From positions 3,090,829-3,154,828 of the forward strand of contig JAJEKV010000041.1 in NCBI GenBank assembly GCA_021234155.1: a DNA stretch of 64,000 nt, written 5' to 3'. The stretch's first letter is position 1. Every line of letters begins with the position of its first letter. Positions 3,801 through 59,318 of the stretch are shown here, piece after piece. Below the pieces are notes generated by a model. The model did not search any database and had not been told where the DNA came from. It saw only the letters and a program-made list of their open reading frames with translations. This DNA comes from Isoetes taiwanensis (Eukaryota; Streptophyta; Lycopodiopsida; Isoetales; Isoetaceae). A program made the translations under genes and the position numbers.

Positions 3801-4300
3801 TTTCCAGCCGGGCCAAATGAACGCCCATATGTCATGAGTGCAAATAGCGCAGAGTTGGGAGATTGGGACACTCGTCGACTTCGACGACGACGGCAGGGAG
3901 GCCCGCTGACTACATTCGTGGTGAGTGTCATATCTTTGCCGCGAATAGATACGTAGCAGCAAGCAGAGAGCCAAGATAAAGTAATTTCCACGGGGAAAGG
4001 CCAAGGCCAAGTCATTTATAGTCCCGATAGATTCTGAAGTAGCCATAACTTTGCATCTCCCGCAATGGTTCAAATGTTGAAGTTGAAACCATTAAAGTCA
4101 AAGCCAAGGCCCGCTTGTCTTAGCAAGTGGAGCAAAGAAGGCGCATCGGGCAGTAAAAAGAATCAACTTTGACATCGACTTGCCGGGGATTAAGATCCAG
4201 ATGGGGGCGAGGTAATGGGCATCGGCAAATATGACTTGATAATAGGTATGGAGTACCTTGGACCAGCAGGGCCATTATTGATTGTGGAAGCTTTAAGGTG
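885..4300 (+). mobile_element. E1 gag and protease region (decayed)
   Basis: The stretch starts with an ATG followed by MATSISEMVQRP and continues as coding-like sequence rich in Arg, Glu and Lys. A weak aspartic-protease-like segment occurs around 3990-4290, before the clear reverse transcriptase. Assignment to gag and protease rests mainly on position. The region is broken. Confidence 0.5.
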
Positions 4301-4639
4301 ACCTTCCCAAAGACCCGACGACAAAGATCATTGAGATAACAGGTAAAGAAGTTGTTCCCATCATGCGGTGTATGTCTTCTAAACGATTGTTCAAGTGCTT
4401 CAAGAGTGAGCAAGTGGCATACATTTTCAAGCTTGAGATTAGTGAGCCGAATCTAAGGAAGCAAAGAAGACAAGATGCTCGCCAGTTGCCGAGGCAAATA
4501 AGTTGATCACGCGAGTTCCACGATCTCTTTCCGTATGAGATCAAGCGACTCCCTCCTATAGAGGAGTCGAAAGTGCGAGATAGCACTCGAACCGAACAAA
4601 GCCAACAAGCAAGGCTCCATATAGAATGACAACGCAGGA

Positions 4640-7408: not shown

Positions 7409-8270
7409 TTCTTGTATAGATTAATCTCGCGATGCAACCCGCGCTTGGTATGGGTCGCATGCGTTGTTACCGATGATGAGACCACTACGGTGATCTCTAG
7501 GGCGTGGTGTAATGTCAATGTAGGCATGACCGCGTTTCCGATTGGGCGAGTGGAAGGTAGATTAGAAAGTCTACTTCTGTTCCACGGAAGTAGACGACCT
7601 CGAGAGAAAGGAGGTCATTAAGGAATGCATTGATAGGGAAAGCACCTTTAGCCCCATATATGTTTTGATAGGAGGAATCCATCCTTCACGCCCCCCACGC
7701 GAGAAGGATATCCTCCACGCTGGGCAACTAGAGGTGTAGGCATGAGCGGCATATAGGCATATAGGCGCTGTCTCCACGGCCATTATGGAAGATTCATCCT
7801 CTTCCTACGCCGGGAGATTAGCCATGCATTCATGTAGATAGGTGGGTTGGTCACCATATAACCAAAATTTATTAAATAATTAAAAGCGGTACTAACGTGG
7901 TGTCGACCGCCAGCCGAGAGAGCTCCCGGAGGGCAAGGAGGTCGAGCTACGAAGACTTGCAACACAAGTTTTGTTGGAATGTGTTGCAAGGAATGAAGAG
8001 TACCTCGGACAATAATTATAGATATGAAATGTTGAAATTTTGTCTAACTTAAGATAGTGAATAACTTGTTAATGGCGTTATGAATTGATAAGTATTCCAT
8101 AATATAATGACGTAATAATGTTCTAAAAGTAATTACCTTAGGGTAATCGTGATAAATGTATAAAGATTATATTATAGGCATCACGTTGATTGCGGGTTGC
8201 GGGTTAGAAGATCCCAAGGTGGGGAGACCCGACTTTGCCGCTGACGAAGATCATTTCAAGGTGGGGAGAA
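7409..8270 (+). other. E1 3' internal non-coding stretch
   Basis: Between the chromodomain and the 3' LTR. No coding similarity seen. It ends in the purine-rich run AAGGTGGGGAGAA directly before the LTR, the expected place and composition of a polypurine tract. Confidence 0.6.
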
Positions 8271-9817
8271 TGTGGCGTTCCAAAGCCGCGATTATACGGT
8301 CCCGGGCGATATCGCATCTTTGCCCAAATCGCTGCGTACACACCATCTCGACCGGCGTGTGCCAACCGGATAGCCGTGTAAGTAGCCTAGGGGCAACTTG
8401 CTAGAGTGTTCATATATTATTAATGTGCACATGTGCACATTAATGAGGGCACACCTTTCCATGTTGGCATATTTTGCCACCTAGCCATTAAAGGCAAGTG
8501 GGGCCTTTCCAATTATCCCACATGCCAAATTGGGCAATTGGAAACCCTAGCCTAAACCCCATGTCTATTTAGGGTAGGAAAACCCTAGCTTGCTAGCTTT
8601 TTAGATCCTTAGGGTTTTTAGAGCTCGGTTTTGGCTGCCCTGGAGCCAAAAACCGCCTCCCGTGACGCGCCCGAATGCGCCATCGGTTCCCCTCAATTCG
8701 ATCAGCTCGGCCGGGATGGTTGAACTTCAGTCGAGGAGCCACTCAAGGATCGGGTATTTGGTCAATTTAATAGCTTAAACCGTCTTCTAGTCATAGAATC
8801 AGTAGGTTTAGACTATTAAATTGCCCATAGTAGCTATCTAGATCTTAGATCTCGGACACTAACTAAAGAACCTAACTCTATGATTAGATCTAGTTCTTTA
8901 GTTCTTCTGTGATGTATTTGGATGATGTATCTCTGTGAACTCCTTGTATTGGGAAGGGGGGTAGAGGCCCTAAAGCTTGTAGTTGATGCTCCTAGAATAG
9001 CCTCTCTAGCACACTGTAGATTCGGCCTGTGTACAAGAGCCACACCTGGTTGTGGGTGGAGGGGCCGGCCGGCTAAGAATGAGGTTCATGTTACGACTCC
9101 CGAACGATCCCCCGGTGTGTAAAGCCTACCGGGATCATTGTGACTAGGTCTAATGGCTTACCACCGAAAAGCGGGTAAGGCATGGGCTCGACACCCGTGA
9201 AGTGGTGTACACTTTCCATGGGGTTCACGAATATGGGCAAGGGCCCTCTAGTCACCTTGAGTCGGCATGTAGATCTCTGAGGGAGTGATCCCTACCGCCC
9301 CATCGGGCTGGGAGGATGAGACCCGGAATAGCCCCTTTGGCTATGCATCCGTGAGGGCTGGTCGAGTCCCAACACTTTTCAACCTACTCGCAAAGTGTGC
9401 ACAGGGAGGGGCGGATGGAGTGGACAACCCTATGCCATGTTCTTATGCCAGCCAATTCCATTGCCATGAATTACAATGCCTCAGACTTGAACTCGGAGAT
9501 CCAAGCCGTCCACCACCCTTGAGTCTCGAGCCTTGGGTAGGATCCCCTATGTGATGTCTTGATCTTTGTCCATGCAGATATGAGGAGGACCATCCTTCGA
9601 GATGGTCGCAGGATGTTGATATATGTGCTACTGACATGTATGTTTACGCTTCGCAGCCTAGGTAGGCCCTGAGGGAGACGGGGTAGAATGACACCTTCAC
9701 TCTCCCCCACTTCGTTAGTGCAAAGATATGTGGAGGGCCCCAGACGATGGAGTGGTGTGGGGAAGAACTCCTGTTTGTATACGGTGAGTGCACCGTATAC
9801 GAGTAGGGGACGTCACA
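8271..9817 (+). repeat. E1 3' LTR
   Basis: Starts TGTGGCGTTCCAAAG and ends GGGGACGTCACA, giving TG...CA ends, preceded by a polypurine tract. The same sequence in reverse orientation forms the 5' LTR of E3 at 43419-45016, for example the shared end around CGTATACNNNNAGGGGACGTCACA. Element E4 sequence begins at the very next base. Confidence 0.85.
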
Positions 9818-10570
9818 GAAGTTAATTCCCAAACACATTCAGAGTGCAAGGGCGATCTCTAGCATAAGAATCAGAGGAAGAAGATGGCACTATAAATTTA
9901 TCCATGGCAGTGGAGACAGGCGGACAGAAGGGATATTTCACAGCAGATCAAAGCAAGCTTAGGTTCACTGGATTTGATGGCCGAATTCAAGCAGGGTCTG
10001 CCGGATTTGGAAGCACAGAGCAAATGGGCATGACAGATTTTTATTCATAACTGGAGTTGGGCTTACAGGCAGGTGGCGGCATGCTTCAGAGACTCAGCTC
10101 TACATAATCCGTCCCCAATCAGGCCGAAAATCAATATAAAGATCAAATCCCCACCTGAATTTAGCTTTGGACTCTTGTTTTCCTTGCTCTGCTGCCAATT
10201 TGATCAGCCCAACCGATTCTCTTTCTTCCTCCTTTAGCCCATCCGGCTACTCCTTCTGCTCTTAAATACTTTTTGCCCTAAGAACACTTGGCAAGATCAA
10301 TCCCAGGATCAGGACAGATGGTGCCTTGACATGCCACATGCATCTCTGAGCGGAATCCTCCCGCTGGCAGCCACGATTCTTCCTTCCCCGATTTTAGTGT
10401 GCTCACACTTTTTTCATTCAATTTATTAAGGTTTTAAATTACCTTAGCTAAAGATTTTATTTAGTTTTAAATGGCGCCCCCAACACACCTATAGAACATA
10501 TCAACACAATCCGATACTGACAACTAGAACATGCAACTATAAGCTCGTCTAAGCGACTAGGTTCGTTACA
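9818..10570 (-). repeat. E4 3' LTR, cut by E1 insertion
   Basis: Almost identical to 14945-15697 over the full 753 bases. By eye there are about 16 differences (roughly 2%), so E4 is a fairly young insertion. The outer part of this LTR is missing here because E1 begins at 9817; the rest should lie to the left of E1 outside the window. The inner end reads TGTAACGAACC on the minus strand, next to the purine-rich ACAAGGTGAGAA. Confidence 0.85.
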
Positions 10571-13500
10571 TTCTCACCTTGTAAAAATCAACTCATGTCC
10601 TCATGAGTTATGGGAAAGGTCGGATATAAATTCTTGAACTTGTCAGCGTCTTCCCATGTCGCATCCTCCTGCGGATATCCTGCCCATTGGACTAGGTATT
10701 TCTCGATGGTGCTATTCCTCAGTACTCTAGTATCAACTCGCAAAATTGTTTGAGGTTTTACTGCGAGTGTCTCTTCTACTGCAACCAAGTTATCATGTGG
10801 CAGGATATGTGATGGATCGCTGAGATACTTGCGTAAGTTGCTGACATGGAATACATTATGGACCTTGACGTCAATAGGCAATTCCAGACGGTATGGGCCT
10901 TGCCGATCCTCTGTATGATTTTAAAAGGGCCCGCATATCTAGGTGCTAGCTTGCCAGCTTTCTTAAACTTCAAAGTACCCTGCTTAGGGTTAATCTTTAG
11001 GAACACCATATCATTCTCCTGGAATTCTAAAGGTCTTCTCCGTTTATCTGCATACTGCTTTTGTCAGTTTTGTGCTTTGGCAATATTTTGTCTAATAATG
11101 CGGAGCTGTGTCCCAATATCCTCTCCCATGGTCTGGACCAAATCAACTTTACACTGCGGACTACACCAAGTCAAGAGATATCGGCATTCTTGCCCATATA
11201 CTGCTTCAAATGGGCTCTTTATGGAATCTTGATATGTATTGTTGTAGGCAAACTCAACTAAGTACAGATAAGATTCTCAAGTGTGCGGATGTTCGGGAAC
11301 ATACATCCGGAGCATGTCTTTGACAACCTGATTAACTCTTTCAATTTAGCCATCGGTTTGAAGATGATAGGCTGTACTCATCCTTAATTGGGTTCCAATC
11401 CCGTGGAACAATGCTTGCCAAAACTGGCCAACAAAGTGCGTGTCTCGGTCTGACACAATAAGCTTAGGCATACCATGCAGACGGAATATATCCTTGATGA
11501 AAATCTTAGCAATATCTGCAGCAGTAGCCGTGATTTTGGTTGGCATAAAGTGGGCTTGCTTGGTGAGACGATCCATTACTACATAGATGGAATCATATCC
11601 TGCTCGTGTTTTAGGCAATCCCACAATAAAATCCATACCTATACTCTCCCATTTTGTATCAGGAATATCTAACGGCTGCAATTCCCCTGGGACCTTTTGG
11701 TGAGAGGCTTTCACTTTCTGGCATGGTAAACATCTGGCCACATAGCTTAATATTTCCTTCTTCATACTAGGCCAAAAGAACTACTTGCGGACCTTGCGAA
11801 GAGTTTTCTGAACTCCTGGATGACCCGATACTGGACTATCATGAGCTTCTTTCATAATCTGCTGTTTAAGCTCGGCATTATCCGGTATACACAACCGATT
11901 GTGGTAGAATAACTTGGATGCTTCAATCTTATAGGGATTCTTTTTTTCCCCTTGCTCAAGTGCTGCTACTATAGGCTGAAAATACGGATCCTCCCGGATC
12001 AACTGCGTGAGATTGCTGTCCCATTGCGTATTAGCAACACTAACGGCAGCACAGTATGATCGTCGGGACAACGCATCTGCAATTATGTTATCTTTCCCAG
12101 GCTGATACATTATGGTAAGATCATACTCCTGCAGCAGTTGCATCCATCGTTTCTGGCGATTATTTAGCTGAGGCTACGTCAGGAAATACTTAAGACTCTG
12201 ATGATCAGTCTTGAGGAGAAATTTCTTACCCAAAAGATAATGCCTCCATAACTTGAAGGCGTGCACAATTGCAAGCATTTCCAAATCATGGGTTGGGTAA
12301 TTCTGTTCAGCTGGATTAAGTTTCTTTAATGCATATGCACACACATGGCCATCCCTGAATTCTTCTAACACCTCCTGAATAGCTTTTGGAACAATAGTTC
12401 CTGGCATTTATGTAGCTTTACTTATCATCCCAACATACATGATTCCTCCCTTGCGCAAATAGCGCTTTGCCTGCTTGCAGGTCAACACGGAAGGCCCAGA
12501 GAGCATAGGGCGACTACCCAATCTCTTGATAGAACCATTTGACAAGGTGCAAAGGACAGCCTTGCCTTTACAATCGATGTAGGCCCCTACGGCTTTCAAC
12601 CAGGACATTCCGAGGATTAAATCGTACTTACCCAGATCAAGGACTTCAAAGTTAGTATGAAACTTTATCCCACAGAGTTTAAAGTCCAGGCGAGGCACAA
12701 ATCCATCTGACATCTTAATCACACCATCTGCTAACTCTACAGATCTAGGATTCCGTGTAATGACATTCAAACCCATCTGAGCAATCAATCTAGGCGAAAT
12801 AAAATTGTGTGTGCTACCACTGTCAATCAAAAAAATGAAAAGGTTGCGTTCAAATGGTACCTGGTAGATGGATAACGTCGCAATATACTCAGCAGGATCT
12901 CCACCAATGGCGTATGCACGCATATCTGGTGCTGCTCCTGCTTCCTCCAATGTGACTGCTTTAGCTCGTGCAGGCCTCTCCTCCGTACGAGTATTCCGAG
13001 GTCCACTAACACTTGGCGTACTCGCCACTCCCACTACTAGCTTGCGGTCCTGCATTGCCCCTATTTTGCCACTTCCCAGGACAACGAGCTGAAATATGCC
13101 CAGCTTCTTTACAATAGTAACACAATCTTTCTCGGCGGCAACGTTCCTCTGCTCCTCAGAACTCATCCGGTTTGGTCCATTTGACCGCCTCTCTTGAGTA
13201 GGACGTGTATTTCCCCGAGTATCTCCAGAAGCCGCAAAAGATCTCTCTCTGCTTATGAGGGTACTCCTTTTGGGTGGTTTCCTCTCGGCTTTTGGTGATC
13301 CGACTCTGGACTTGTTCTTTGAACTTGGAGACTCGGCTAGCTTCTTCCAAACTGGGATAGATTACCCCTCCAACCAACAAAGTCAACTCCGGCTTGAGCC
13401 CCTGAATAAACTTGTCAACTAATTGCGCCACCGTCATAGTGGGTCCGTATGGTTGCAATGCCCTAAATGCATTGGCGTATACTTCTACTGTATCCTCTTG

Positions 13501-13700
13501 AACCAAATGTGATCTGGCTCAGAAGAAGATGGTTAGCCTTCTTATACTCTTCCCACCAAATCTTGGCGGGTCCAGTTAATAGCATGTCGGCAATGGTTAT
13601 TTTCCATAAATCAACTCTACTTTCTAGGAGACTTCTTAAGTTTCTAACCCTTAATTCCCACGGCCCGAAGGTTGTCAGAACTTTGGGCTCTGATACCAAC
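10571..13700 (-). mobile_element. E4 internal region: Gypsy chromovirus gag-pol fossil
   Basis: Read on the minus strand from high to low coordinates: gag (about 13699-13000), retropepsin-like protease (about 12900-12420; LFIFLIDSGSTHNF and LGMSWLKAVGAYIDC), RNase H (12407-12174; ALKKLNPAEQNYPTHDLEML and LLKTDHQSLKYFLT), integrase zinc region (12143-11781), integrase core (11765-11346; MDFIVGLPKTRAGYDSIYVV) and integrase tail with chromodomain (10881-10588; KYLVQWAGYPQEDATWE). No reverse transcriptase core was recognised. The element is broken and cannot be autonomous. Confidence 0.9.
13687..13698 (-). other. E4 primer-binding site
   Basis: On the minus strand TGGTATCAGAGC, complementary to the 3' end of plant initiator tRNA-Met, two bases inside the end of the 5' LTR (13701). 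Confidence 0.8.
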
Positions 13701-15697
13701 TGAAACGGACCTAGCCCCTTGGCCTAGGCCATCGCACTAAGTAACTCGGGTATAGACAATCAAATCATCACGAACTTCTATTCATAAATATTTGGTTTAC
13801 AATCAAAACATTTACATCCGGTCCAAGGCCACACATACAAAGGAGAGTTCCCATCATCCTCATCCCATAATACACCCATAATATACAAAAACCCCAAGGC
13901 CACCCCGTCACCCATGCCTAATTGGCCCTTTGATCTTCCCCCTCCTCGGAAGCGACCGAGGAGGAGTCGCCAGAGCTACCCTCGGAAGACTCTCCATCCG
14001 TATCCGGGTCTTGGGCCTCAATCTGGGGTTGCCTTTGCGCATAATACAACTCCCTAAACAAAGATATTAGGATCTCGTAAACTCGCTCCTTAGACATTAA
14101 AGCTGGCTCAGCCTCCGTCTCGTTGAACCATCAAGTAACAAAAGAGTCTAGGTCCAACACAATCGTGGCTTCAGGACGTGCCATCTTACAACACAGCAAA
14201 CATCGGGGGTTAGTCCACAAGGACTAAGTGGGGAGGAATATTGGGATCATCAAATTCATGCATAACAATAAAAATAACAATAATACGTGATTTACCTGGT
14301 ACGTTGATACTCTCCTGCAAGGTTAGTACATTCTATGACTACCATTTCCCATGTATACTATATGCCAAACGTAATCCTTGGGTGGCGACCCCAAGGAGAC
14401 CACTCTCTCCATCTGTACGTATAGGGCTCAACTCATCCGTCAGGCCATCTGGCACGGATGCGGAGTTACACGGCCACCCCACCCCTCCGAAGGTGGGCCG
14501 TTGAATGCAAATGCACAACATTCTTGATACAAGTGCACTACATCCATAATACCATCTCAAATACAATTCCGTAAGGTGCCCCCATACCCCATTCATATTT
14601 ATAGAGCAATCTTAAATGCACACATAGACATCCCACGTCATAGACTAGCTAGGCAGATTCTTTTCCCAAATCCTAGACTGGCAACAACATTCACTGGCAT
14701 CTTGGTCCTATGGGGTTTATTTGCCTAGCGGTTTGGTAGAGGTACAACTTAAGTTTTACTTTAACTTATAAGCAACTTAAAAGTGTTAAGGTTTAACTTT
14801 AAAATAAGTTTTTAATGGTCTGGGGATACCGGACCCTGGTATCCCCCCTTCAATAGAATCAGAAAATAACTGTGACAGTTTCGTGGGCGCCCAACAGCGG
14901 CCCCTTTTTGCTGGCCGATTGGCTCTACAAGCTCGCCCAAGGCCGGAGTTAATTCCCAAACACATTCAGAGTGCAAAGGCGATCTCTAGCATAAGAATCA
15001 GAGGAAGAAGAGGGCACTATAAATTTATCCATGGCAGTGGAGACAGGCGGACAGAAGGAATATTTCACAGCAGATCAAAGCAAGCTTAGGTTCACTGGAT
15101 TTGATGGACGAATTCAAGCAGGGTCTGCCGGATTTGGAAGCACAGAGCAAATGGGCATGACAGATTTTTATTCATAACTGGAGTTGGGCTTACAGGCAGG
15201 TGGCGGCATGCTTCAGAGACTCAGCTTCACATAATCCGTCCCCAATCAGGCCGAAAATCAATACAAAGATCAAATCCCCATCTGAATTTAGCTTTGGACT
15301 ATTGTTTTCCTTGCTCTGCTGCCAATTTGATCAGCCCAACCGATTCTCTTTCTTCCTCCTTTAGCCCATCCGGCTACTCCTTCTGCTCTTAAATACTTTT
15401 TGCCCTAAGAACACTTGGCAAGATCAATCCTAGAATCAGGCCAGATGGTGCCTTGGCATGCCACATGCATCTCTGAGCGGAATCCTCCCGCTGGCAGCCA
15501 CGATTCTTCCTTCCCCGATTTTAGTGTGCTCACACTTTTTCCATTCAATTTATTAAGGTTTTAAATTACCTTAGCTAAAGATTTTATTTAGTTTTAAATG
15601 GCGCCCCTAACACACCTATAGAACATATCAACACAATCCGATACTGACAACTAGAACATGCAACTATAAGCTCGTCTAAGCGACTAGGTTCGTTACA
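13701..15697 (-). repeat. E4 5' LTR
   Basis: On the minus strand it starts TGTAACGAACCTAG (15697) and ends GGTCCGTTTCA (13701), followed by the initiator tRNA-Met primer-binding site. Length 1997 bp. The outer 753 bp match the E4 3' LTR fragment at 9818-10570. Confidence 0.85.
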
Positions 15698-16507
15698 TCA
15701 AGCTAGGCGATAACTACCTTTTACAATACAATGATCTATAATGTAAGTTCTGAAGAAATGAAAGTCAATGACCAAGATGCCGCATAGACTATCCTCTTAT
15801 TTCTCCTTCAGTATATATATATATAGATTATGACGAATGTATTTTTAGTTTTGACTAATCAAGCCACTTTTTGAAGTCCAATAGCTACAAATGGATAAGT
15901 AACATGAGTCTTTGGGTGGAAGCAAGGGCAATCAGCGCGGAGAAGCTCAAGGATTAATTATGTGATTTGGTTCCAAGTAAAACATGGAGTTTATTATTGT
16001 AAATTGCTCAATATGACCTCAATATTCGATTGACCAATGTCGGAAATGCAAGGATACCCACAACGAAAAATCTAGAACTCCAATGGTGCAGAATCATCAA
16101 GAATGGCCTTGTCAATTAGTGAATAGGCATCATTCTCGAGAAATAGCCTCCTGCTCTTAATGCAATTCGTGATCAAATAGGGCTTTGAATAAGAGGATTT
16201 AGATCATAAGCATTTAGATTCCTGTTAACTAAGGGCATTCTCCCTTAGTTAACGAGGATTTATTTAAATGTTAACTACTTTTAAAACACCTAACCCGATG
16301 CTCGCAAGGTGGATCTAAAATTTGAACCTCAGTTTGAGACACTTGAATATGAGGGCAAAACATCATGGTTTTAGAGCGCTTAGAGATAGTTTCCACACCG
16401 GTTCCAAGTGACACAAATTCTCACGCAATGGATTTAGATGAAGAGAAATGCTCGGGGGCATTGGCTCCGGGATAAATAAATGTCTTGTATACATATCATG
16501 ACCACCT
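15698..16507. other. Intergenic, nothing recognised
   Basis: AT-rich sequence with a short AT microsatellite at about 15812-15826. No open frame with exon-like splice signals was found, although upstream exons of the phosphodiesterase gene could have lain here before the E4 and YR-element insertions. Confidence 0.5.
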
Positions 16508-24801: not shown

Positions 24802-25019
24802 AGTTGGCAGGCTATAAGGAATGACTAATGTACTGATCTTTGATCTCTTAATAGACCGATTTACTGACTTTGGTCTTGGTATTAAGAAATTGCATATAAT
24901 TTTCAGTTTCTCTTTTTTTTTGTATGGAACATAATTTGTTTTATAGAATCCACATCCAATTCCGTCCTATCTGCATTCAAATCTACATCTTCATTATATG
25001 ATCTAAGTAAACTACAAAA

Positions 25020-25560
25020 TAAAAAAGGGGGATTGTTGAGAAAAGGGTATTAATTAAGTACGGGATATTAAATACAAGGTCACAAAAGGGGAATGGTTGA
25101 GAAGAGGGGTATGAACGGACACAAAAGGGGGATGGTTGAGAAGAGGGGTATGAACGGAATAAGGGGATATTAAACACAAAATCACGAAGGGGGGATTTTT
25201 GAGAAAAGGGTATTAACAGTATGGGATATTAATTACGAGGTCACAAAAAGAGGATGGTTGAGAAGAGGGGTATGAACGGAATAAGAGGATATTAAACATA
25301 AAAGGAGTATGAACGGAAAAGGAGTATAAACATAAAAGGGGTATGAAAGGAATAAGGGGATATTAAACATAAGGGGATATTAAACATAAAAGGAGGATGG
25401 TTGAGAAGAGGGGTATGAACGGAATAAGGGGTATGAACGGAATAAGGGTATATTAAACTACAAAATCACAAAGGGGGATTGTTCCTAGAAAGGGGTATGA
25501 ACATTATTTGTGAGAAAAGGGGTATGACCATTGCATATGGCAATGGGGGATATAAAAAAA
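25020..25560. repeat. Right subterminal minisatellite
   Basis: Units of about 30-70 bp combine GGTTGAGAAGAGGGGTATGAA, CGGAATAAGGGGATATTAAA and CACAAAAGGGGGAT. The composition resembles the left block, as expected for the two ends of one element. Confidence 0.85.
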
Positions 25561-26322: not shown

Positions 26323-26466
26323 AGGGGAAATGTTCGCTGGCTGGCCATTATGCGGGATGCGGCCACCAAGCATGCGTGGCTGGCCATTACGCGGGGTAAG
26401 GCCACTTGTTAGGGCTCGACAAGTGGCCTTACCCCGCGTAATGGCCAGCCAGCGAACATTTCCCCT
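26323..26466. mobile_element. Foldback MITE
   Basis: The arms AGGGGAAATGTTCGCTGGC and its reverse complement end the unit. A second, inner palindrome (TTACGCGGGGTAAGGCCACT and its complement) occupies the right half. A related copy lies at about 26833-26970. Confidence 0.8.
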
Positions 26467-26539
26467 CAAAATATTGGGCAGTCCACATTTCGCACGTGCC
26501 GCCCCCTTTTGTTCAATCTGGCGAGCACTAGCAGCCTGC

Positions 26540-27320
26540 CAGGTGGCACTAGCAGTCTGGCAGCTGGGACATGAAAGTTATAGGATGTAATAAGGGTGAT
26601 AATATGGAGAATTGTGGCCTGCCCTAACATTTCGAACCCTGCTTGTGGGATATGTAGGTGTTCGATCTGTGGGAGATTCAGAATAGAAAATTTTGAACCA
26701 TGGCTTGAAGCTACAACTTCGGTAGATCAAGACTATCTTGGTCATGAAAATCCAGTGATGTTGATGGTGAAGCTGGTGGAGTGTTGATGGTAAAGCTGGT
26801 GGAGACGGTAAAGATCTATGGTGATCTTGAAATGGGCTGGCCATTATGCGGGATGCGGCCACCAAGCGTGCGTGGCTGGCCATTACGCGGGGTAAGGCCA
26901 CTTGTCGAGCCCGTTAGGGCGAGCCAGTGGCCGCACCCCGCGTAATGACCAGCCAACGAACATTTCCCCTCGAAATGTTGGGCAGTCCACATTTCGCACG
27001 TGCCTGCCAGGTGGCACTAGCAGTCTGGCAGCTGGGACATGAAAGTTATAGGATGTAATAAGGGTGATAATATGGAAAATTGTGGCCTGCCCTAACATTT
27101 CGAACCCTGCTTGTAGGATATGTGGGTGTTCGATCTGTGAGAGATTCAGAATAGAAAATTTTGAACCATGGCTTGAAGCTACAACTTCGGTAGATCAAGA
27201 CTATCTTGGTCATGAAAATCCAGTGAGGGACCTGTTGATGGTGAAGCTGGTGGAGTGTTAATGGTAAAGCTGGTGGAGACGGTAAAGATCTAACATCTAT
27301 GGTGATCTTGAAATGAGGAA
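26540..27320 (+). repeat. Tandem duplication offset by 468 bp, including a foldback MITE
   Basis: GATGTAATAAGGGTGATAAT starts both units (26583 and 27051), and more than 200 following bases match, including GAACCATGGCTTGAAGC and AAGCTGGTGGAG. The first unit contains a second copy of the foldback MITE (26833-26970). Short partial repeats of GATCTATGGTGATCTTG continue to about 27375. Confidence 0.85.
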
Positions 27321-37390: not shown

Positions 37391-40300
37391 CTTGCTTGAA
37401 GCAGCAAGGTAACGTTCTTTCGAGTCGCTCGATACTTCGGTCTCCTTGATGGTGGCTCCTCCTTGATGTAGAGGTTGACTTTGTTCGTTAGAAGCCGGGT
37501 TTGATGGCGTAGTTGATCACTTGAAATCTTTCATGCCTGAAGGTGGCGCCGTTGAAAAAGATATTTCATCTTGAACTCTTTGTCTTGGCAGCTAAAGAAC
37601 GACTCTGGATCTGATATTATTTCTTCGACTCCATCGACGTCTCATACGTCGAGTCCTCCTGTCGCTATCGTGTTGCCCGAAGAGTGTTGAGGATGTTGAT
37701 TGCTTCACCCCTGCAAATTGCCTGACATCTCTTCCTTTGATCTGTTACGCTATGGGAGGGAAGGAATAACAAGGGAACTATACATGCAAAGCATATAGCT
37801 TACATAATTACAATTACTACTAGAGCTATTAGGTCCCCCTTGTGCCTCCCTTCGAGTTGCACACCTACTCCTTGGCAATGTCATCGGTGTTCTTCCCAGT
37901 GCAATGGTGTTGATGATCTATATCCTCCTATTTGTACGTCAGCTCATACTCCGGGGTAACTTTTTGATATACTTGGGCCCTTCGGTGTTTATCGGCTATG
38001 GCACAACACGCTTTGCATCACATTCTAACTAAAGGTGTGCTGGTCGTTGATGCTTCGGCATTTCGGTCTGTTTCCTGATCCTGTTCTTGGGCGGTAATTG
38101 TTCCCCCTTCATGATGCTTGAAGCTATTTGGAGGTGTCTCTTGAGGTTGTGCGCGATTCCTTTGGCTATACTCCTCTGGAGTTGTTCTCTTCTGCAGTTG
38201 TTCTTTGAATCGTCGATCCTTGGGTTCATCAAGTTGTATGCAAGTCATCGGCTCGACTCGCCTAGTCGCTTCTCCATCGAGCTTCCAATCTTATTTGTTT
38301 GATCCCTTGGACGTTGTCACCATTCTACAATGCTATGCCGTCTTCTTGTCTTGAGGTACCTTCCGGTGACTTTGATTGTGCTCGTCAGTTTTGATCCTCA
38401 TGTTGCCTCTAGGGAGGTCGTGGAAGAAGTCGGTTGCTAGCACTTCTCCAGCTTTCAGTTCCTGGCCTTTGTCCCTCCATGCATGTCGGTCTCTCTCGCA
38501 ACTAAAGCATCATGGCTCTCCTCCCTGCTGGCTATGTTGTCGGGATGATGGATCCTTATATCCGCGCAGTTTGACCCTTGAGTTGAAGAAGTACCTGCCT
38601 TAGATATACTCTTGTCGTTGAATAGCCTGGCTATTATCTTGAACTCTCTTTTTTGTCAAAGGTGCTTCAGTTGCTATCCTTGTCGTTAAGGTGTCGAATG
38701 CTTCTACCTTGGGCATTTGAGGTCCCACATGTCGGAGATACGATCGGCTTCTTCTCTTCTAATTACTGGTAGGAGTACCTGACGAAGCCCTCATCTAGTT
38801 GTTGAAGGCATATCCTTTCGTAAGTGCATCTCCATCTAATACGCGTGTCATAGCGCATCACCCTATATCACCACAAGGTGGAATTATGGTTGTCGAGATG
38901 TTGCCTTCTTAGTTGGCTCGTTGATGTCGGGTCGTCCCGAAGAATTTTCTCGACATCTGCCGGCTTGGCTCATGGCCGCGGCTTCTGAAGATGTTTGCGC
39001 GTTCCTCCTATTGTTGAGGACACTCGTGTCATGATGTCGTCAAGTGTTGCCACTGCTATAAGAGGTAGTGTTGCGCCCTGACGATGTCCTGGTGCAGCGT
39101 TGATGATCTTGACATGACCGGCGTTGTCTCTTATCCTGACATTGTGCTGGACGAGTGGTCTTCTGGCTATAGTTGTGCTTCTTTGCTTCATCGTTTTGGC
39201 ATCCGAAGTGATGGAGCTTCTTGATCTAAGCGCTAAATCCCTAAAACATGACTCTAAACTCATGTTTCTCTACTATATATGTGAGCCCCCGAGATATACA
39301 ATAGACATATACGCATTTACATTGGGATTTTAATTCATCCACTTTTCCAAAACAACTAAGAAGGTATACTTAAATGTTTATACTCCTTTAGGGTTTCCCC
39401 TCCTCCTATCGCGTTTGATTCTTCAGTTTTGCTGCTTATTCTTCGTTCTGGTTGACTCCGTGATTCCTTGAGATGCTGCTACTATTGTTGACCTTCATGT
39501 CTGATCCGAGCTCGTCACTCCAGGTTGCGAAGAGTGTTCGTCGTTGTGATCCCTTGAAAAAGATGCTCCTCCTTAATGTGTATGTCCATCGTGAGGAATG
39601 CGGTGACCGCTCAACGTCCCTACATGCGGTGTGTCGTTGCAAGGTTGCCGATGTGCGGTGCCGTTGATCGCTTGAGTAGGATCACCTGACTGTTGCAGTC
39701 GGGCATTCTTGAATGTCTTCGAAGCTCTGAGATCGTGGTCGATAGGCAGGCATTGTCGTTCCTCTGCCGGTTGAATTTCTGAGCGCGACTCCTATTGCTT
39801 GGGCTTTGCTTCATTTTAAGATGCCTCTCCTGTGCCTGGAAGTGTGGTCATCTCCATTGCAAGCTCCTCCTGGTCGCCTTTGTGTGATTTGTACCTGCTG
39901 GCTAGGCCGTCTCCTTCGTCCTTTGGGTCCAATCCACTCGAGTCTCCCACTACTTGGCTGAAGTAGTAAAGTCGTCCTTCCTTCGGTTTCTAGGTGTTTC
40001 TGGGTCCGAAATTCTTGTTCGAGCAGAATATTCTCCTCCTTGATCTTGCCCCGAATGCTGATATAGGCCTTCAAGTCGGAGATGTTCCTTCCCTGATATG
40101 TGTCTCCTCCCCATCATGGTCTCCTACTTTTTGGAACCGATGAAAGTTCTCCTGCTGAGTTGGAAGCTCGTCATGGTCAGCCTTAGGTGCTTTGTAGTTG
40201 CCTAGCTTGGTTGCTCCTTTTGGTGACGTTGCATGACATTCGCTTGAGCTGCTGGGCTGCAAGGTCGTGGTGGTCTTCCCTCCGGTTTCTATATGCTCCT

Positions 40301-41326: not shown

Positions 41327-41391
41327 TCTCATGGTATGCGCTGGGAGGCAAAACCAAAATTTGGTTTTTGGTCTGGGCGCATACCATGAGA
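41327..41391 (-). repeat. E3 leader hairpin downstream of the H3-like gene
   Basis: Near-perfect inverted repeat: TCTCATGGTATGCGC pairs with GCGCATACCATGAGA, with an AT-rich loop that is itself partly palindromic (CCAAAATTTGG). Confidence 0.9.
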
Positions 41392-41534: not shown

Positions 41535-42020
41535 TTAATGGGGTTCTCCTTTAATGTGGCTGGCCAGATGCATACCTTTCTTCATTAGAGTTACTCTCTT
41601 GGCATGTACCGTGCATGCCGTTGAGTCCTCAAAATGCTGCACTAGTTTCTGCTCCACTGCTTCTTGCAAGGCTAGTAGCATCTCGCCTGTTACTCTCATG
41701 TTGGAGCTGAATTCTTGCACGACTTCCTTCACGAGCCTGGCGAATGGTGCACGGGGAATTAGAAAGCCATAGCTCCGCTGAAAATGTCTGATCTCCTGTA
41801 TCGCTCGTGACAGGTTCGAGTGGGCTTTCCTTGCCTTTGGCTTCTTTGGAGGAGTAGGCTTCTCTGGCGGCGGCTTGAGAGTCTGCTTCTTGGATGGCCG
41901 TCCACCTGCGACGTAAGTGACCTTGTTCGCCTGGTAGTAGGAGTTGTAGGCCTCCCACTTCTTCATGAACTCCAAGTGCGCCTTCAACTTCTTCTGGTAG
42001 ACCCTGGGATGGTCTACCAT
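41535..42020 (-). CDS. Histone-H3-like protein encoded in the leader of Gypsy element E3
   Basis: One uninterrupted frame of 161 codons from ATG at 42020; it stays open further upstream, to about 42110. Residues 1-67 are a basic, Pro- and Lys-rich region (KPPPEKPTPPKKPKARKAHS) unlike the canonical H3 tail. Residues 68-159 form a full H3 histone fold: IQEIRHFQRS (alpha N), FLIPRAPFARLVKEVVQEF (alpha 1), a loop 1 of canonical length, EMLLALQEAVEQKLVQHFED (alpha 2), and TVHAKRVTLMKKGMHLA plus IKGE (alpha 3). In canonical H3 the same positions read REIRRYQKS, LPFQRLVREIAQDF, ALQEACEAYLVGLFED and IHAKRVTIM. It is not a standard H3, lacking the ARTKQTARKS tail. EIRHFQ and LLIPR-like words also recall centromeric H3. 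It sits between the primer-binding site (43406) and the gag-like region. Role unknown; chromatin targeting or packaging is conjecture. Confidence 0.85.
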   Translation of the reverse strand: MVDHPRVYQKKLKAHLEFMKKWEAYNSYYQANKVTYVAGGRPSKKQTLKPPPEKPTPPKKPKARKAHSNLSRAIQEIRHFQRSYGFLIPRAPFARLVKEVVQEFSSNMRVTGEMLLALQEAVEQKLVQHFEDSTACTVHAKRVTLMKKGMHLASHIKGEPH

Positions 42021-42149
42021 ATAGGACTCCTTAGCAGGTCGGGGCGGCTTCTTGAGGTCCTTGTCTTTCTCCCATGTCGGTAGGGCGGGGGTGCCTGCAC
42101 CTGCCGATCCTGCTCTGCCTGCTCCTGGTCCGTCCGCTCCTCATCTAGG

Positions 42150-42424
42150 GCTTGGAAAAGCTCCCTTCTTCTAGGTGAGGATTGTAATCCTCGTCGTCTA
42201 AGTCGTCCGAGGATGGGGGCTTGTCGGGCGGCCGTTCCTCGATGACGATGTTTGTCATCGGGGTCTTCTTCGTCTTCCTCTTGGGCTCCTCCACATTTTT
42301 GCCCTTGAGTTTCTTCTTTTGTTCGGCCTCCTTTGCCTCCTTTTCTTCTCTTTTCCTCTTCTTCTCGGCCTTTTTCTTCTCTCGGCGTCGCGACTTCGCC
42401 TCGAAGTGCGGAGCTAACTTCTAG
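42150..42424 (-). other. Lys/Glu-rich coding-like stretch upstream of the H3-like frame
   Basis: On the minus strand a highly charged stretch (RRREKKKAEKKRKREEKE, later EERPPDKPPSSDDLDDEDY) reads like a nuclear, disordered domain. It may be another part of the leader gene or a separate reading frame. No relationship to the H3-like frame is asserted beyond position and strand. Confidence 0.45.
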
Positions 42425-42620
42425 ACATGAAGTCTACAAATGAGAGGGGTTTGGGTCTATGTATAGTTTGGGCAATTTTAGGTCAAATTCTAAGTTACTC
42501 TTTTTCATGTGCCAAAGCACCTATTAACCTATAACATATGCTTACTTCAGAGTTTTCTAGTCCATTGGTCTCACGGTGTGCGCTGGGAGGCAAAACCAAA
42601 ATTTAGTTTTAGGTCTGGGC

Positions 42621-42987
42621 CAATGTTGTCCCGTACGCGTACTGTTCCATACGTTTCGGACGTATTTTTTGAAAAAATACGTATTTTATACAATAGGTAC
42701 TTAAAGTGCTTAAAATACATTTTTTAAAAAAATTGAAAAAAAGCTTAAATATAACAAATTATGCAATAAACACAAACAGACTGTTGGAAAGTTGGTTAGC
42801 ATGTTTGTTTGCTATCTGGGAGGCCTAGGTTCGAATCCTAGTGGGTGCAAATTAAGTCTGTTTTGAGAAAACTGTGTCTGTTTTTTTGAAAAAAGCATTA
42901 AGCGTATTTTTTAAAAAATACGTGTACGTGTATGGTATGGTACGGTACATATGGATTATCAAAAATACGCGTATTAGTACAACACTG
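42621..42987. mobile_element. hAT-like MITE with tRNA-like insert
   Basis: Terminal inverted repeats CAATGTTGT and CAGTGTTGT are flanked by an 8-bp target-site duplication GTCTGGGC (42613-42620 and 42988-42995). The 8-bp size and CA-G/A-TG ends fit the hAT superfamily. Inner palindromic ACGTATTTTTTGAAAAAATA blocks follow. No open frame. Confidence 0.8.
42783..42851 (+). repeat. tRNA-derived sequence inside the hAT-like MITE
   Basis: GTTGGTTAGCATG resembles an A box, and CTAGG-TTCGAAT-CCTAG is a perfect T-arm with a B box (GGTTCGAATCC). The 3' acceptor strand TGGGTGC has no partner at the 5' side, so this is a tRNA-like relic or SINE head, not a functional tRNA gene. Confidence 0.6.
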
Positions 42988-43146: not shown

Positions 43147-43211
43147 TCTCACGGTGTGCGCTGGGAGACAAAACTAGAATTTGGTTTTTGGCCTGGGCGC
43201 ATACCGTGAGA
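43147..43211 (-). repeat. E3 leader hairpin upstream of the H3-like gene
   Basis: TCTCACGGTGTGCGC pairs with GCGCATACCGTGAGA. About 190 bp from the primer-binding site. Confidence 0.9.
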
Positions 43212-43405: not shown

Positions 43406-43417
43406 GCTCTGATACCA
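43406..43417 (-). other. E3 primer-binding site
   Basis: TGGTATCAGAGC on the minus strand, one base from the LTR end, complementary to the 3' end of plant initiator tRNA-Met. It fixes the LTR at 43419-45016 as the 5' LTR and the strand as minus. Confidence 0.85.
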
Positions 43418-43418
43418 C

Positions 43419-45016
43419 TGTGACGTCCCCTACTCATATACGGTGCACTCACCGTATACAAACAGGAGTTCATCCCCCATACCAGCTCCATGCTAATACA
43501 GGGCCCTCCACGTATCACTGCAACCTTGAAGAGTTCCAGTGGGAAGAATGAAGGGGTCATTTACCCTGTCTCCCTCAGGGCCTACCTAGCTGCGGAAGCG
43601 TAATATACATGTCAGTAGTACATACATCAACATCATATGACCATCACGAAGGATGGTTCTCCACATATCTGCATAGACAAAGATCAGCACATCACATATA
43701 GAATCCTACCCAAGGCTCAGACACAGGGATGGACTGACAAGCTTGGGTCTCCAGAGGTCATTGCAGACAGAATTCATGGCAATGGATTTGGCTGGCATAA
43801 GAACATGGCTTAGGGTAGTCCACTCCATCCGCCCCTCCTGTGCACACTTTGCAGAGTAGGTTGAAAAGTGTTGGGACTTGACTGTAGCCCGCCGGATGCA
43901 TAGTCAAGGGGGCTATTCCGGGGTTTCATCTCCCCAGTTCCGATGGGGCAGGTAGGGATTGCTCCCACCAGAGGTTGGCATGCTGACTCAAGGTGACTAG
44001 AGGGCCACTGCCCGTACTCGACTGAACTCCATGGAAGGTGTCCACCACCCCAAGAGTGTCGAACCCATGCAAAGTCCTCACGCAGTGGCAGAGCATTAGG
44101 TCTAGTCCACAATAGTCCCCGATAGGCTTTACTACCAGAGGGACATGATCATGAGTCAGGACATGAACCTCCTTATAAGCCAGTCTGGCCCCTTCACCCA
44201 CAACCAGGTTTGGTTCTTGTACACAGGCCGAATTTAATAGTGCATTAAAGAGGGCTAGCTAGGAGCATCAACTACCAGGCTTTAGGGTCTCTACCCCCCT
44301 TCCCAATACAATGAGTCCACAGAGATCATCATCACATACATATCACAGAAGAACTAAAGAACAAAGATTTAATCTAAATCACAGAGTTAGGTTATTTAGT
44401 TATGGCTTGATATCTAGAGGTCTAGATGGCTGTTATGGTCTAGAGGTCTATAGGCTAAACCTACTTACGCTATGCCTGGGAGGCGGATTAGACTATTGAA
44501 TTGGCAAAATACCTGATCCCTGGCTTGCTCCTCCTACTATGAACGCATCCATGCTACAGAACTGCTCGAAGATGAAGCTAGAAAGGGAAGCTGATGAGCT
44601 AGGCTGCTCAGACAGACTTCGGAAGTTGAGATTGGCTCTTGGATCAAGCAAAACGGAGTTCTAGAAGGCTATGGACGAAAATGGAAAGTTAGGGTTTCCT
44701 ATACTTATATAGACTAAGGGTTAGGGCTAGGGTTCCCTATTATCCCTTTGAGCATGTGGGATAATTGGTGTGGCCCACTTGCCTTTATTAACTAGGTGGC
44801 ATAAAGTGTACACATGGGTAAATGTGTACACATGGATAAATGTGCACATGAATAAATGTGCACATAAATAAATGTACACCTTGCAAGTTGCCCCCTAGGG
44901 TGCTACTTGCTTGGCTACACGTCGGCGTACACGTCAATGGGGATGGCGTGTACATCGCGATTTAGGCAAAGACAAAGATACGCCCCGGGACCGTGATCTT
45001 GTCTTTGAACGTCACA
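43419..45016 (-). repeat. E3 5' LTR
   Basis: On the minus strand starts TGTGACGTTCAAAG (45016) and ends GTAGGGGACGTCACA (43419), 1598 bp. Homologous to the E1 3' LTR over its whole length with many substitutions and small length differences, so the two copies separated long ago. It is inserted in the RNase H region of E2. Confidence 0.85.
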
Positions 45017-52145: not shown

Positions 52146-52150
52146 AGTGT

Positions 52151-52690
52151 CTACCGGCTGTCACATAAACCCTAGCACACATCCAGAAAAGTGCCAATTT
52201 GAACCCCGAACCAAGGCCAAACATGCAGATATTATACACCATTGGAAAGATATCTGAACCAGCTTTCAAAAGAATCTAGGCAGACAAAAATCTGACACCA
52301 GATGGCTGAGATACAGCCCATCGAAGTGTCTACTGACTGCCACAAAAACACCCTAGCACACACCCCAGAAAAGTGCCAATCTGAGCACCAAAACAAAGCC
52401 AAGCATGCAGCTATCATATGTCATTGGAAAGATCTCTGAACCCGCTTTCCAAACAGTCTAGGTACACAAAAATCTGACACCAGATGTGCGAGATACAACA
52501 CATCAAATTGTCTACCGGCTGCCACAAAACCCTGAGCACAGCCCAGAAAAGTGCCGATTTGAGCACCAAAATAGAGCCAAATATGCAGGTACCATATGCC
52601 TTTGGAAAGGTCTCTGAGACATCTTTCCAATGAGTCCAAAGACCTGAAAATCTGACACTGGATGTGAGAGATATGACCGATCAAAATCCT
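52151..52690 (-). repeat. Three tandem ~178-bp LINE 5' monomers
   Basis: Units start at about 52151, 52329 and 52508. Each holds CCAGAAAAGTGCC, ATTGGAAAGAT or a variant, AAAATCTGACAC and GAGATA. They lie upstream of the first LINE frame, as promoter monomers do in some animal L1 elements. Confidence 0.8.
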
Positions 52691-53829
52691 ACAAAAACCC
52701 TAAGCATGAACTCGATACATGTAGTCCCCTCCATTCAAGATGGAGCCGACCCAGTACCCTGATCAAGCAAAGGGGAAGAGGAAGGTGTGGAAATGTTGTC
52801 AATTAAACATGCAACATGATTCAAGGAGGAATTCAATGGTAATTATACTTATTGGGATGATAAGATTATGCTGCTGGGAATGGTGTGTGAATGGTATGTT
52901 TTTTACTAGGAAAAATGGTTTTCCTAGCTTTGGCTTTGGAAAATAGCAATGATGTATGAGAGGAGGGAAAATGAGATATGAGAGATGGTTTTTGGATAAA
53001 ATCATGGTACCAAAACCTTGGAAAATGATAAATCATGCCGTGGGAAGCAAAATAACATGCCAAAAACTTGAATCTAGCAAAATACCAATGTAACTTGAGG
53101 GATCTTCCAAACTTTGACTTAGGGGTCTCCAATCTTTGCCTTTCAAGTGTTGAAAAATGCTTTAATTGATCAAAATTTCTTCTTGCAATGCCAATATGAT
53201 ATACAATCGAAGTCTTCCCTTGGTTCTTCATAGCAAAACGTTTTCTACAAGTCTTCAAAGATAGATGTTTGCAAGATCCATGTTCCACTAGCTCATGCAT
53301 ATATATATATCAAGTCAAGTATTAGCAAATTGTGTGATGTATACACATGGCTCTTCTATGCTATCAAAATGTGGCAGCATGTGGAAAGGCCAGAATGTCC
53401 ACATCTTCCAGTTGTTCTTCGCTTCCTGCAATGTAGCTTCTGCCCACAAAGTTGAAATTTGTGTGATTTATTTGCGTTTCATTGAGGGATCTCCACTTAA
53501 AGTATTTAAAGCCCATCTAGGCAGTCTTTATCAACCATTTTGAGCCTCTCCCTAGTTAGACGCTCACACCCCGTTCCCCCCCCCCCCCCTCCCCGAAAAC
53601 CCTTTACACCATTGTTTTTGTCCTTTTTGTGAATCCTTTTCAATTATTTGTCTTTAAGTTCTCTGCTGATAGTTTTAGGTTTCATTTCTGGGTTGCCCCT
53701 AGGGGGCAAACCCTTGTTTATGTGGGTTTTTGGCATATCCTAGGTATATGCTAGAATATCCCTAGGATATGCTGGTGACTGCTACAAACCTATTCTTCCC
53801 TGTAAATTCTCGGTCACCTGCGTTGTGGA
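52691..53829. other. Intergenic, nothing recognised
   Basis: An AT microsatellite near 53300, a poly-C run at about 53577-53590 and TAGGGGGCAAACC/GGTATATGCTAG short repeats near 53700-53775. No gene similarity. Confidence 0.5.
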
Positions 53830-56828: not shown

Positions 56829-57667
56829 GGTAGGTTGGCCCATAATCCTCAGAAGATGTATCAAAAAGTAACTAAGCCTTTCCATGTTTGTTTGTTCTAT
56901 TTGTTGTAGCAATTTATGGTCCTCTTAGACATGTTGAGTAACGGGTTCATAGAGAAAATTTCATGACATATTGAAAATTCCATGACTTAGTTGTTGAATA
57001 AGTGCTTGGAACTCAAGATAAAGCAAGCAATCTACTCTTTTAGCTTCCCCGTGCTATTGCGCGAATTTATAGGCTTTCATTTTATAGTTTCCTGGGCTAT
57101 TATACAATCAACTTTTCTTCTCCAATGGTGAGGTATGTAGCCTCAAGAATTACTGATTGTGGCCATGTTGGTGTCAAAGGGAAGCGCACAAGTTGGAATT
57201 GTGGCATCCCATAAAATATGCAGTTTTAACATTATGCATAATTGAGGTCCATTTGTTTTGCTCCTCATGTCTTCTAGACGTCATTTTTCAACCCAGAAGG
57301 CAATTGATTTTTGTTAATAAACATCTACTTATTCAGCATGTAGCAGCTTGCAAAGTTTTTCATACCTATTAGCCCAACCCAAGAGGTCATTTATATTCTT
57401 GATTTTCTCATGGTGTCACTTGTGATTTGTCACAACATCTTACACTAGTAAATGAGAGAAAATTCTTTAATGCTTATAGAAGCACGCAAATTTCTCATAT
57501 TTTTCACGGTATGGTGCCATGCTCTATGATGTCAATGATATTTTTCACGCAAGGATTTCTATAAAGTAGGCCATGACATGCGTGCTTATAGCTAGCTTCA
57601 ACGTGTCTTACATATGAATAAAGGTTTCTCTAGAACTTTTTCCAGCTAGTGAAACCTTGGGAAGAAT

Positions 57668-59318
57668 TTGACAACAGAGGAGGATAGGGAAAAGCTTACT
57701 GCCTCCAGCATTGTAACAGGGAATGAACAATTGGAAGTATCAAGAAAAAAAAAAGGCTTCAAAACAAATGGCTTCATTGATGTGCCCAAAATTGCCTTGT
57801 TGCTCGAACGTTGTTCTAGTACCAAGGCTTTGTCAGAAGGTCAACAGATTCATTGTTACATAATGCAAAATGGATTGGATCAGCATGTGGTCCTATCTAA
57901 TTTGCTTATACAAATGTATGGCAAGTGTGAAGATTTGCAGAATGCAAGGGCTGTATTTGACAAGATGTGCATTCGGAACGTTTATTCTTGGAATATCTTA
58001 ATTGCAGTTTATGTCCAACATAGGCACCTTGAAGAAGCACTGGTGCTTTTTTATCAGATGCCCGTGCGGGACATAGTAACTTGGAACACAATGATTGGCA
58101 TATGGACAGCAAGGCAACTTAGAGATGGCCATTAAGTTTTTCAAGCAAATGCCTCGAAGACAATGTGGTATCCCGGAATGCCATCATTATGGCTCTCATT
58201 AAACAAGGGCATATCAAGGAAGATGATCGATGGTTCAACAAATGCCTCAACGTAATGTAATTTCATGGAACACTATGATTGCTAGTCACGCTGAGAACAT
58301 GGGCAACTTGAGGGGCCTTTGAAACTCCTTGCAAGAATGTGCAGAGAAATGTCGTTACATGGAATTCTATAATTGGAGGTTTTATAAAGAGGGCAATGAG
58401 GCTTGTATACTGTTTCAACAAATGCCACAACGTGATGTAGCGTCCTACAATGCTATGATCTCAGCCTTTGTTGGGGCTGCCAACTTAATGAGGCAGTATA
58501 TCTCTTTAAACAAATGCCTTATAAGGATATCATTTTATGGCCTGATGATCAGTAACAACATTCTCTGCTGGCATGTCGTTTTAATAGTGGATGTGGTAAT
58601 GTTGATTATTAACATTGCTATCAAACATTAAGGAAATTTCATCTTTGCAAATAGCTACTTGCTTTGAGTTCAAAATATCCGGTGCCGCAATACTCTTGGC
58701 TCTTGCCCTCTCCTAGCCTCAATGACATCTGGCTTAGAATGGCCAAATATTTGCTCAACAACTAGATTATAATTCCATCTAGAGGAGGTTTGCTTTGAAG
58801 ATGTGCACAAAGTGTTCAACCAAATGCAGGAAAGGAATATTATATCATGTTCAACCATGATTGCAGCACACATAGAGCATGGTTATGGAAAAGAGGCATT
58901 TGGCATTTATCAACAAATGCAGTTAGCAAAGGAGAGTCCAAACACCATTATCTACATAGTTCTTCTCAACGGTTGTGCCAGCTTTAGTTTTTTTAACAGA
59001 AGGCAAATTAATTCATGCACATGCTATATAGTATGGGTTTGAATCAGCAACTATCGTTGGGAATGCCCTCATCAATATGCATGGGAAGACTGATAATCTG
59101 AATGATGCATCTGAGATTTTCAACCGGATGGATGAGAAAGATGTCATATCTTGGAATACAATTGTTGCAATGTATTCCCATTATGGTTTTTTCAAAGAGG
59201 CCCACTAACTTTTTCAACAGACGCAGTTGCATGGCTTCAAACCAGATGAGGCTATGTTCATCAGCATTCTAAATGCATGCACTACCAGAGCTTCAATGAA
59301 AGCTGCAAGAGTTTAAGT
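57668..59318 (+). pseudogene. PLS-type pentatricopeptide repeat (PPR) protein pseudogene
   Basis: PPR proteins bind organellar RNA, and PLS types guide C-to-U editing. Motifs in order: LLERCSSTKALSEGQQIHCY, YGKCEDLQNARAVFDKM, NVYSWNILIAVYVQHRHLEE and DIVTWNTMI in one frame (57668-58135), then NVVTWNSIIGGF, DVASYNAMISAF, NIISCSTMIAAHIEHGYGKE, and DVISWNTIVAMYSHYGF ending near 59318. Frameshifts and stops (at least five changes of frame) separate the motifs, and 58600-58790 is non-PPR sequence. No ATG at the start of the first frame, and no E or DYW domain after the last repeat. A dead gene copy. Confidence 0.85.

Follow-up and report, generated by a model that had tools for sequence, protein, structure and literature searches.

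Can an LTR retrotransposon carry a core histone as a gene of its own? The question is raised by the window (the whole 64,000-nucleotide stretch of the Isoetes taiwanensis assembly analysed here), in which a first-pass annotation, made from the sequence alone, had recognised a histone-H3-like frame inside the leader of a Gypsy element, E3. The frame (41535-42020, minus strand) encodes 161 aa from its ATG and 201 aa from stop to stop. A profile search agrees with that reading: the frame matches Pfam PF00125 (Histone) at E=2.5e-25 and PDB H3 chains at E=3.1e-23 over residues 38-159, and the best PDB matches listed are H3. The presence of a histone H3 fold, with similarity far above chance, is thus confirmed. 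Loop 1 is of canonical length, as had been proposed, and the PDB H3 alignment is gap-free there. A single-sequence AlphaFold model of the same ORF (mean pLDDT 51, pTM 0.26) was too poor for use.

A truncated H3 gene in a broken chromovirus

The frame belongs to a chromodomain Gypsy element, i.e., a chromovirus. The 5' LTR of E3 (43419-45016, minus strand, approximately 1.6 kb), with ends that can be read directly as TGTGACG...ACGTCACA, is 75.7% identical over 1631 columns to the 3' LTR of E1, a related element in the window. One base separates the LTR end ACGTCACA from the primer-binding site TGGTATCAGAGC (43406-43417, minus strand, also read directly), which we take to be of the initiator tRNA-Met type. 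The leader that follows contains a 65-bp inverted repeat (43147-43211, minus strand), found with a complementarity script, and a second inverted repeat interrupted by a stretch at 42625-42985. Sequence and alignments show this stretch to be absent from related copies: alignments of the E3 leader to copies L007 and L032 end at 42987 and restart at 42620. The stretch holds GGTTCGAATCC, presumably a tRNA-B-box-like motif, and is a possible SINE-like insertion.

At 42457-42465 (minus strand), the sequence reads TATACATAG where related copies have TATAAATAG, some 105 bp 5' of their ORF1, the frame that encodes the H3 fold. At 42396-42403 (minus strand), blastn places a deletion junction where ORF1 has lost its start, the codons for MARTKQTAR and codons beyond them. 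The deletion amounts to approximately 415-480 bp, start codon included, when E3 is compared by blastn with copies L007, L032, L034 and L036. This loss accounts for the N-terminus that the first-pass annotation had described as non-canonical and basic, which is damage and not a property of the gene: an (M)ARTKQTAR-like start is recognisable in 24 of 34 related copies.

What remains of ORF1 (41535-42309, minus strand; Pfam, PDB and tblastn) comprises a charged region, a conserved YQKKLK segment and the H3 fold, with a frame shift near 42140. It is followed by another 65-bp inverted repeat (41327-41391, minus strand, from the same script) and by the remnant of a second frame, ORF2 (39521-40149, minus strand; tblastn with L036 ORF2, E=1e-12). 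Farther 3', the tblastn map gave no match to a gag or reverse transcriptase (RT) of E3 within the window. E3 is a broken copy, and its H3 gene is truncated. On its other side, the E3 LTR directly adjoins a minus-strand RT and RNase H fragment (46097-45018), which probably belongs to another element that received the E3 insertion.

Other elements in the window

The left edge of the window is occupied by E1, a related element that extends further than E3 but is likewise broken; the genes and LTR listed next lie on the plus strand. The C-terminal end of its H3 gene, which had been reported at 1-161, is present at about 23-161 by sequence comparison and is split by a frameshift. Then come a broken ORF2 (984-2403; tblastn, best E=6e-39), a broken gag (2712-3494; tblastn), broken protease, reverse transcriptase, RNase H and integrase (3945-6965; tblastn), the C-terminal end of the integrase with a chromodomain (7145-7470; tblastn with the L036 fragment that matches Pfam Chromo at 8.3e-10) and the 3' LTR (8271-9818; LTR alignment). 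E1 also has 65-bp inverted repeats at 310-372 and 507-571.

A further element, E2 (9820-15698), is a Gypsy element with a chromodomain integrase and 752-bp LTRs that are 98% identical; comparison with H3 and ORF2 gave no match in this element. Elsewhere in the window, an open frame at 57653-58135 resembles a PPR protein by eye, and tandem or direct repeat arrays occupy 25008-25507, 26339-27315 and 52146-52707.

Type A copies in the genome

We searched the assembly (1,658,258,908 bases in 1110 contigs) and found at least 150 copies of E3's kind, hereafter type A, at 69-100% identity to the window protein. The first-pass annotation had argued from E1 that the H3 gene belongs to the element family, and these copies, together with the second type described below, bear this out. 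By hand count among the matches listed, 48 of the 150 type A copies have an internal stop within the match. Some copies, however damaged others may be, keep a single frame open for over 400 codons, and in L034 and L036 ORF1 runs uninterrupted from ATG to stop.

The details of type A come from 34 of the 150 listed copies. Among the 24 recognisable starts, 11 read exactly MARTKQTAR, 21 have the ATG, and all 24 have K4 and R8. Residue 9 is more variable (V in 14, K in 8, L in 1 and P in 1), and the eight copies with K at this position read ARKY. This tip, which is that of the canonical H3 tail, is separated from the fold by approximately 240-260 residues with a high content of K, E and D, including a conserved YQKKLK...KKWEAYNSYYQ segment. 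All 24 copies also have a TATA motif 88-120 bp (approximately 105 bp) 5' of the start; such a TATA box suggests a separate H3 transcript. The exact primer-binding motif is found in 17 of the 34 stretches, many stretches ending short of its position.

In many type A copies, ORF1 is flanked on both sides by 65-bp inverted repeats, while in several others (e.g., L004, L009, L016 and L036) the complementarity script found no such repeat. For 13 repeats, hand-picked from script matches with at least 12 of 18 complementary positions, the arms change together between subfamilies, with 86% of cells paired, a count biased upward because the repeats were chosen for complementarity. Covariation was 0.205, against 0.111 (sd 0.014) after shuffling, and none of 500 shuffles scored as high. 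The repeats might form RNA hairpins or serve as palindromes that proteins bind; we offer the paired changes as a lead only.

Type B, a second H3-bearing element

The matches listed in a search with canonical H3 comprise 15 genes of host type (96-98% identity) and at least 135 further places (71-86% identity); a hand count gave 6 of the 135 with stops. Compared by eye, the type A list and this list have no place in common. Ten of the 135 places were inspected (L047-L056); each is a fragment of an LTR element belonging to a second type, type B, and three of the ten are decayed.

In seven copies, type B ORF1 is 404-430 aa long and consists of an orphan N-terminal domain of approximately 200 residues, a linker and an H3 fold. 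The fold is close to that of host H3, with 83/97 to 88/98 residues identical in the three copies compared. The N-terminal domain has no Pfam or PDB relative (best PDB E 0.6-0.8, which is chance level). The primer-binding site lies 706-789 bp 5' of the start in 7/7 copies, and the interval between them gave no match to TATA[AT]ATA. The linkers of L051, L052 and L053 (three of the seven copies) contain an ARKS motif, which resembles the K9/K27 context of H3 and could be methylated.

Architecture and possible exchange of the 5' module

In full elements, the order is tRNA-iMet primer-binding site, H3 gene, ORF2 and gag-pol. The first-pass annotation had placed the H3 frame between the primer-binding site and gag; it was right about the primer-binding side, but the next gene is ORF2, not gag. 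This architecture was read in L036, L034 and L032 (type A), in L047 and L048 (type B) and in E1. L036 shows it most completely, with the primer-binding site at 1000, a TATA motif at 1583, ORF1 at 1694-2980, a second TATA motif at 3583, ORF2 (open part 3763-5232), gag, RT, integrase and chromodomain, and with Pfam matches to gag (1.7e-15), RVT_1 (5.4e-39), Integrase_H2C2 (8.2e-19) and Chromo (8.3e-10). ORF1, ORF2, RT and integrase follow in the same order in L047 and L048; gag was matched in L047, no gag match was obtained in L048, and the L048 integrase has the chromodomain end. The PR-RT-RH-INT order and the chromodomain typical of chromoviruses are both present (Pfam matches in L036, order in E1). 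This placement of an H3 gene, behind the primer-binding site and ahead of ORF2, is shared by two element types and hundreds of copies.

ORF2, the second frame between the H3 gene and gag, is preceded by a TATAAATAG of its own in the majority of the 10-kb type A loci; neither Pfam nor the PDB yielded a relative for it (best PDB E again 0.6-0.8, chance level). It had escaped the first-pass annotation, as had the MARTKQTAR start, the chromodomain, the H3 of type B and the truncation of the E3 copy. In the ORFs scanned in type A and type B elements, no histone other than H3 was matched. The Pfam hits of the scanned ORFs include no hAT domain, and the elements are LTR retrotransposons. The two LTRs are 91.4% identical in L048 (a 394-column part) and 92.3% identical in L034 (1019 columns), where the second LTR may be a neighbour's because primer-binding-site letters recur after it; no LTR pair was found in L036.

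Different parts of the elements give different groupings. Types A and B are alike in pol (70-78% identity in PR-RT and 71-82% in integrase; type A RNase H is 80% identical to that of L048 and 42% to that of L047), whereas their ORF2 proteins share only 27% identity (E=1e-6). E1, being degraded, gives only rough identities: against type A, 37-46% for most pieces of pol (reaching 63% where the chromodomain lies) and 26-48% for ORF2, while its H3 end matches type A at 75% and 61% identity and type B at 57% at best. Since pol groups A with B and H3 plus ORF2 group A with E1, the comparison suggests that the 5' module (ORF1 and ORF2) may have been exchanged between element lineages.

Selection and ancestry

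Purifying selection, which the first-pass annotation had proposed to look for, is strong on the element H3 in both types. The copies compared were the best protein matches to the query, a choice that lowers dN, and gave a mean dN/dS of 0.105 for type A (34 copies, 561 pairs) and 0.095 for type B (6 copies, 15 pairs, with L049 left out). Within type A, dN/dS was 0.150 5' of the fold and 0.079 within it (527 usable pairs), and it falls in more distant pairs; within type B, it was 0.102 for the N-terminal domain plus linker and 0.029 for the fold. The other two reading frames gave pN/pS of 1.2-1.6 (type A) and 2.7-6.1 (type B fold). With values above 1 in the alternative frames, the purifying signal is specific to the coding frame.

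Host H3 (L041) and the type B fold differ by a pS of 1.01-1.06, i.e., saturation, and a pN of 0.09-0.11 in 6/6 copies; pS among eight host H3 genes reaches 0.76 by the same method. Saturated synonymous divergence combined with low pN indicates an old acquisition that has been preserved as an H3. In a tree of the fold, type A (100/99) and type B (97/93) form separate groups, with B beside canonical H3, and the bootstrap did not settle. The parts of ORF1 upstream of the fold showed no homology between the types (hhalign E 0.12 and 0.3). The difference between A and B may reflect either a single capture followed by divergence or two captures.

The fold and the tail

We assessed H3 interface positions and L1/L2 DNA-contact positions, which we take to be known important sites. 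C110, H113, A114, L126, I130, R83, K115, R116 and T118 are each conserved in at least 32 of 34 type A copies and in 7/7 type B copies, and D123 is present in 30 of 33 type A copies. Type A deviates at R40, R42, R63 (P in 32/34), K56 (R in 31), K79 and R129, all of which type B retains. As judged from these residues, the element fold retains the H3-H3 contacts and most DNA contacts. Its R63, K56, R40 and R42 being absent, however, the type A nucleosome may be unusual or may fail to form. The tail has, by the same sequence comparison, been rebuilt in both types: in place of the canonical N-terminal tail, type A has only the ARTKQTAR tip and type B has none of it.

Proposed explanation and its rivals

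We propose that a chromodomain Gypsy lineage long ago captured a canonical H3, which is now the element's own gene, an explanation that, taken whole, we regard as standing at even chances. The captured protein would pair with H4, as the first-pass annotation had supposed and as the conserved core residues allow, and go into nucleosomes, a step that we rate as quite probable. There it would replace the tail that bears silencing marks (K9 and K27), type A retaining the activating K4, and element chromatin would thereby withstand silencing linked to H3K9me2. That the replaced tail confers such resistance is possible and somewhat short of an even bet, the anti-silencing step being weakened by the K9 of 8/24 type A starts and the ARKS of 3/7 type B linkers. 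Two different H3 modules in related elements would point to a lasting need for an H3; the idea that element-made variant nucleosomes hold element chromatin open, with the H3 "slot" exchanged within the family, is the more tentative part of our proposal.

The main rival, which we consider unlikely, is that the protein is an integration tether: element H3 would mark nucleosomes, and the chromodomain of the integrase would find that H3 or its N-terminal domain, directing new insertions into chosen chromatin. Chromodomains read a peptide close to ARTKQTARK. Some type A tails retain exactly these residues, and the integrase does end in a chromodomain (Pfam Chromo 8.3e-10 in L036; also in E1 and L048), but K9 is absent from 16/24 type A starts and type B is without an H3 tail. 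The protein might instead be a chaperone decoy that titrates CAF-1, HIRA, ASF1 or H4 and thereby impairs the assembly of host chromatin in general. The retained fold and H3-H3 surface would suit that role, and an extra H3 made from many copies could compete by dose, yet a decoy would not need the long conserved N-terminal part, and the N-terminal domain and linker of type B are under selection (0.102); this we hold to be rather improbable. The roles raised in the first-pass annotation, a nucleosome mimic at the integration site or packaging, remain conjecture. We give slightly poorer prospects than to the decoy to a role in packaging or chromatinising element cDNA, either inside the particle or soon after the cDNA reaches the nucleus. 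The gene is fixed beside gag-pol, and newly made DNA could be loaded with an H3 that brings a tail of its own, but no Gag fusion or Gag-association signal was seen, and H3 requires H4, whereas H3 was the only histone matched in the scanned element ORFs.

Two further readings have very little probability. A centromere mimic would be a CENH3-derived gene that brings the element to centromeres, and type A does have EIRHFQ, LIP and VTLM in common with plant CENH3, for which a single sequence was our reference. The residues that lengthen loop 1 in Arabidopsis CENH3 are, however, missing here; by identity, type A stands closer to host H3 (44-48/87) than to the reference CENH3 (41-43/89), and type B is near-canonical. 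Canonical loop length and the tree likewise disfavour an origin from CENH3, with one CENH3 sequence as the reference. The least probable reading is that the H3 gene is a passive passenger, transduced and copied along without function. Host genes in LTR elements are common, according to the available part of PMC7264820, but dN/dS values of 0.105 and 0.095, saturated synonymous divergence from host H3 and the occurrence of two types all speak against an idle gene.

Returning to capture of a canonical H3 by the element, the findings suggest that H3-bearing elements alter DNA packaging to their own advantage. An LTR retrotransposon that keeps a core histone until synonymous saturation would be a parasite supplying part of its host's nucleosome, and it becomes possible to test whether mobile elements use their own histones against chromatin silencing. 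The elements also offer two natural H3 designs, one in which a charged insert follows an intact K4 tip and one with an orphan domain replacing the tail. We infer, in addition, that some genes annotated as H3 variants in the genomes of such plants may belong to elements.

Comparison with known systems

The first-pass annotation knew of no described LTR element with a histone gene, and our literature searches, which covered listings, abstracts and passages, likewise found none. Chromoviruses share with the Isoetes elements the gag-PR-RT-RH-INT order, the chromodomain at the integrase end and the tRNA-iMet-type primer-binding site, but the Isoetes elements have two extra ORFs 5' of gag, one of which is a histone H3. 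The nearest case in an LTR element is a Ty3/Gypsy element of Phalaenopsis with an ORF for an AlkB-type m6A demethylase (PMC9289625, from the passages available). It, too, has an extra ORF with a host-derived domain that is kept across subfamilies; it differs in that the domain is AlkB, the element is 25 kb long, the gene is ORF2 and the passages describe no histone.

For an element-encoded anti-silencing protein in plants, a known example is VANC of the VANDAL transposons (PMC5735166 and PMC10398659, in the portions accessible to us). The parallel is a proposed one only and concerns such a protein together with noncoding repeats that differ between related elements. VANDAL is a DNA transposon whose VANC is a DNA-binding protein, with no histone in those portions, and anti-silencing by the Isoetes elements is only proposed.

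An H3-like gene (H3L) is carried by hAT DNA transposons of Dothideomycete fungi, as the available text on Pyrenophora tritici-repentis describes (PMC3538342): this species has 26 near-identical, recent H3L genes, all with N-terminal tail insertions. The hAT elements of Pseudocercospora fijiensis and relatives also carry H3L, with 784 inactivated copies in P. fijiensis (PMC6710886, excerpts). As far as these excerpts go, the fungal and Isoetes elements are alike in having a mobile H3-like gene next to an ORF without known function, and they differ in that the former are DNA transposons, whereas the latter are plant LTR retrotransposons of two diverged types under long-term purifying selection. 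An H3 with tail insertions beside an ORF of this kind has arisen independently in fungal hAT elements, which suggests that carrying a modified H3 is a recurrent strategy.
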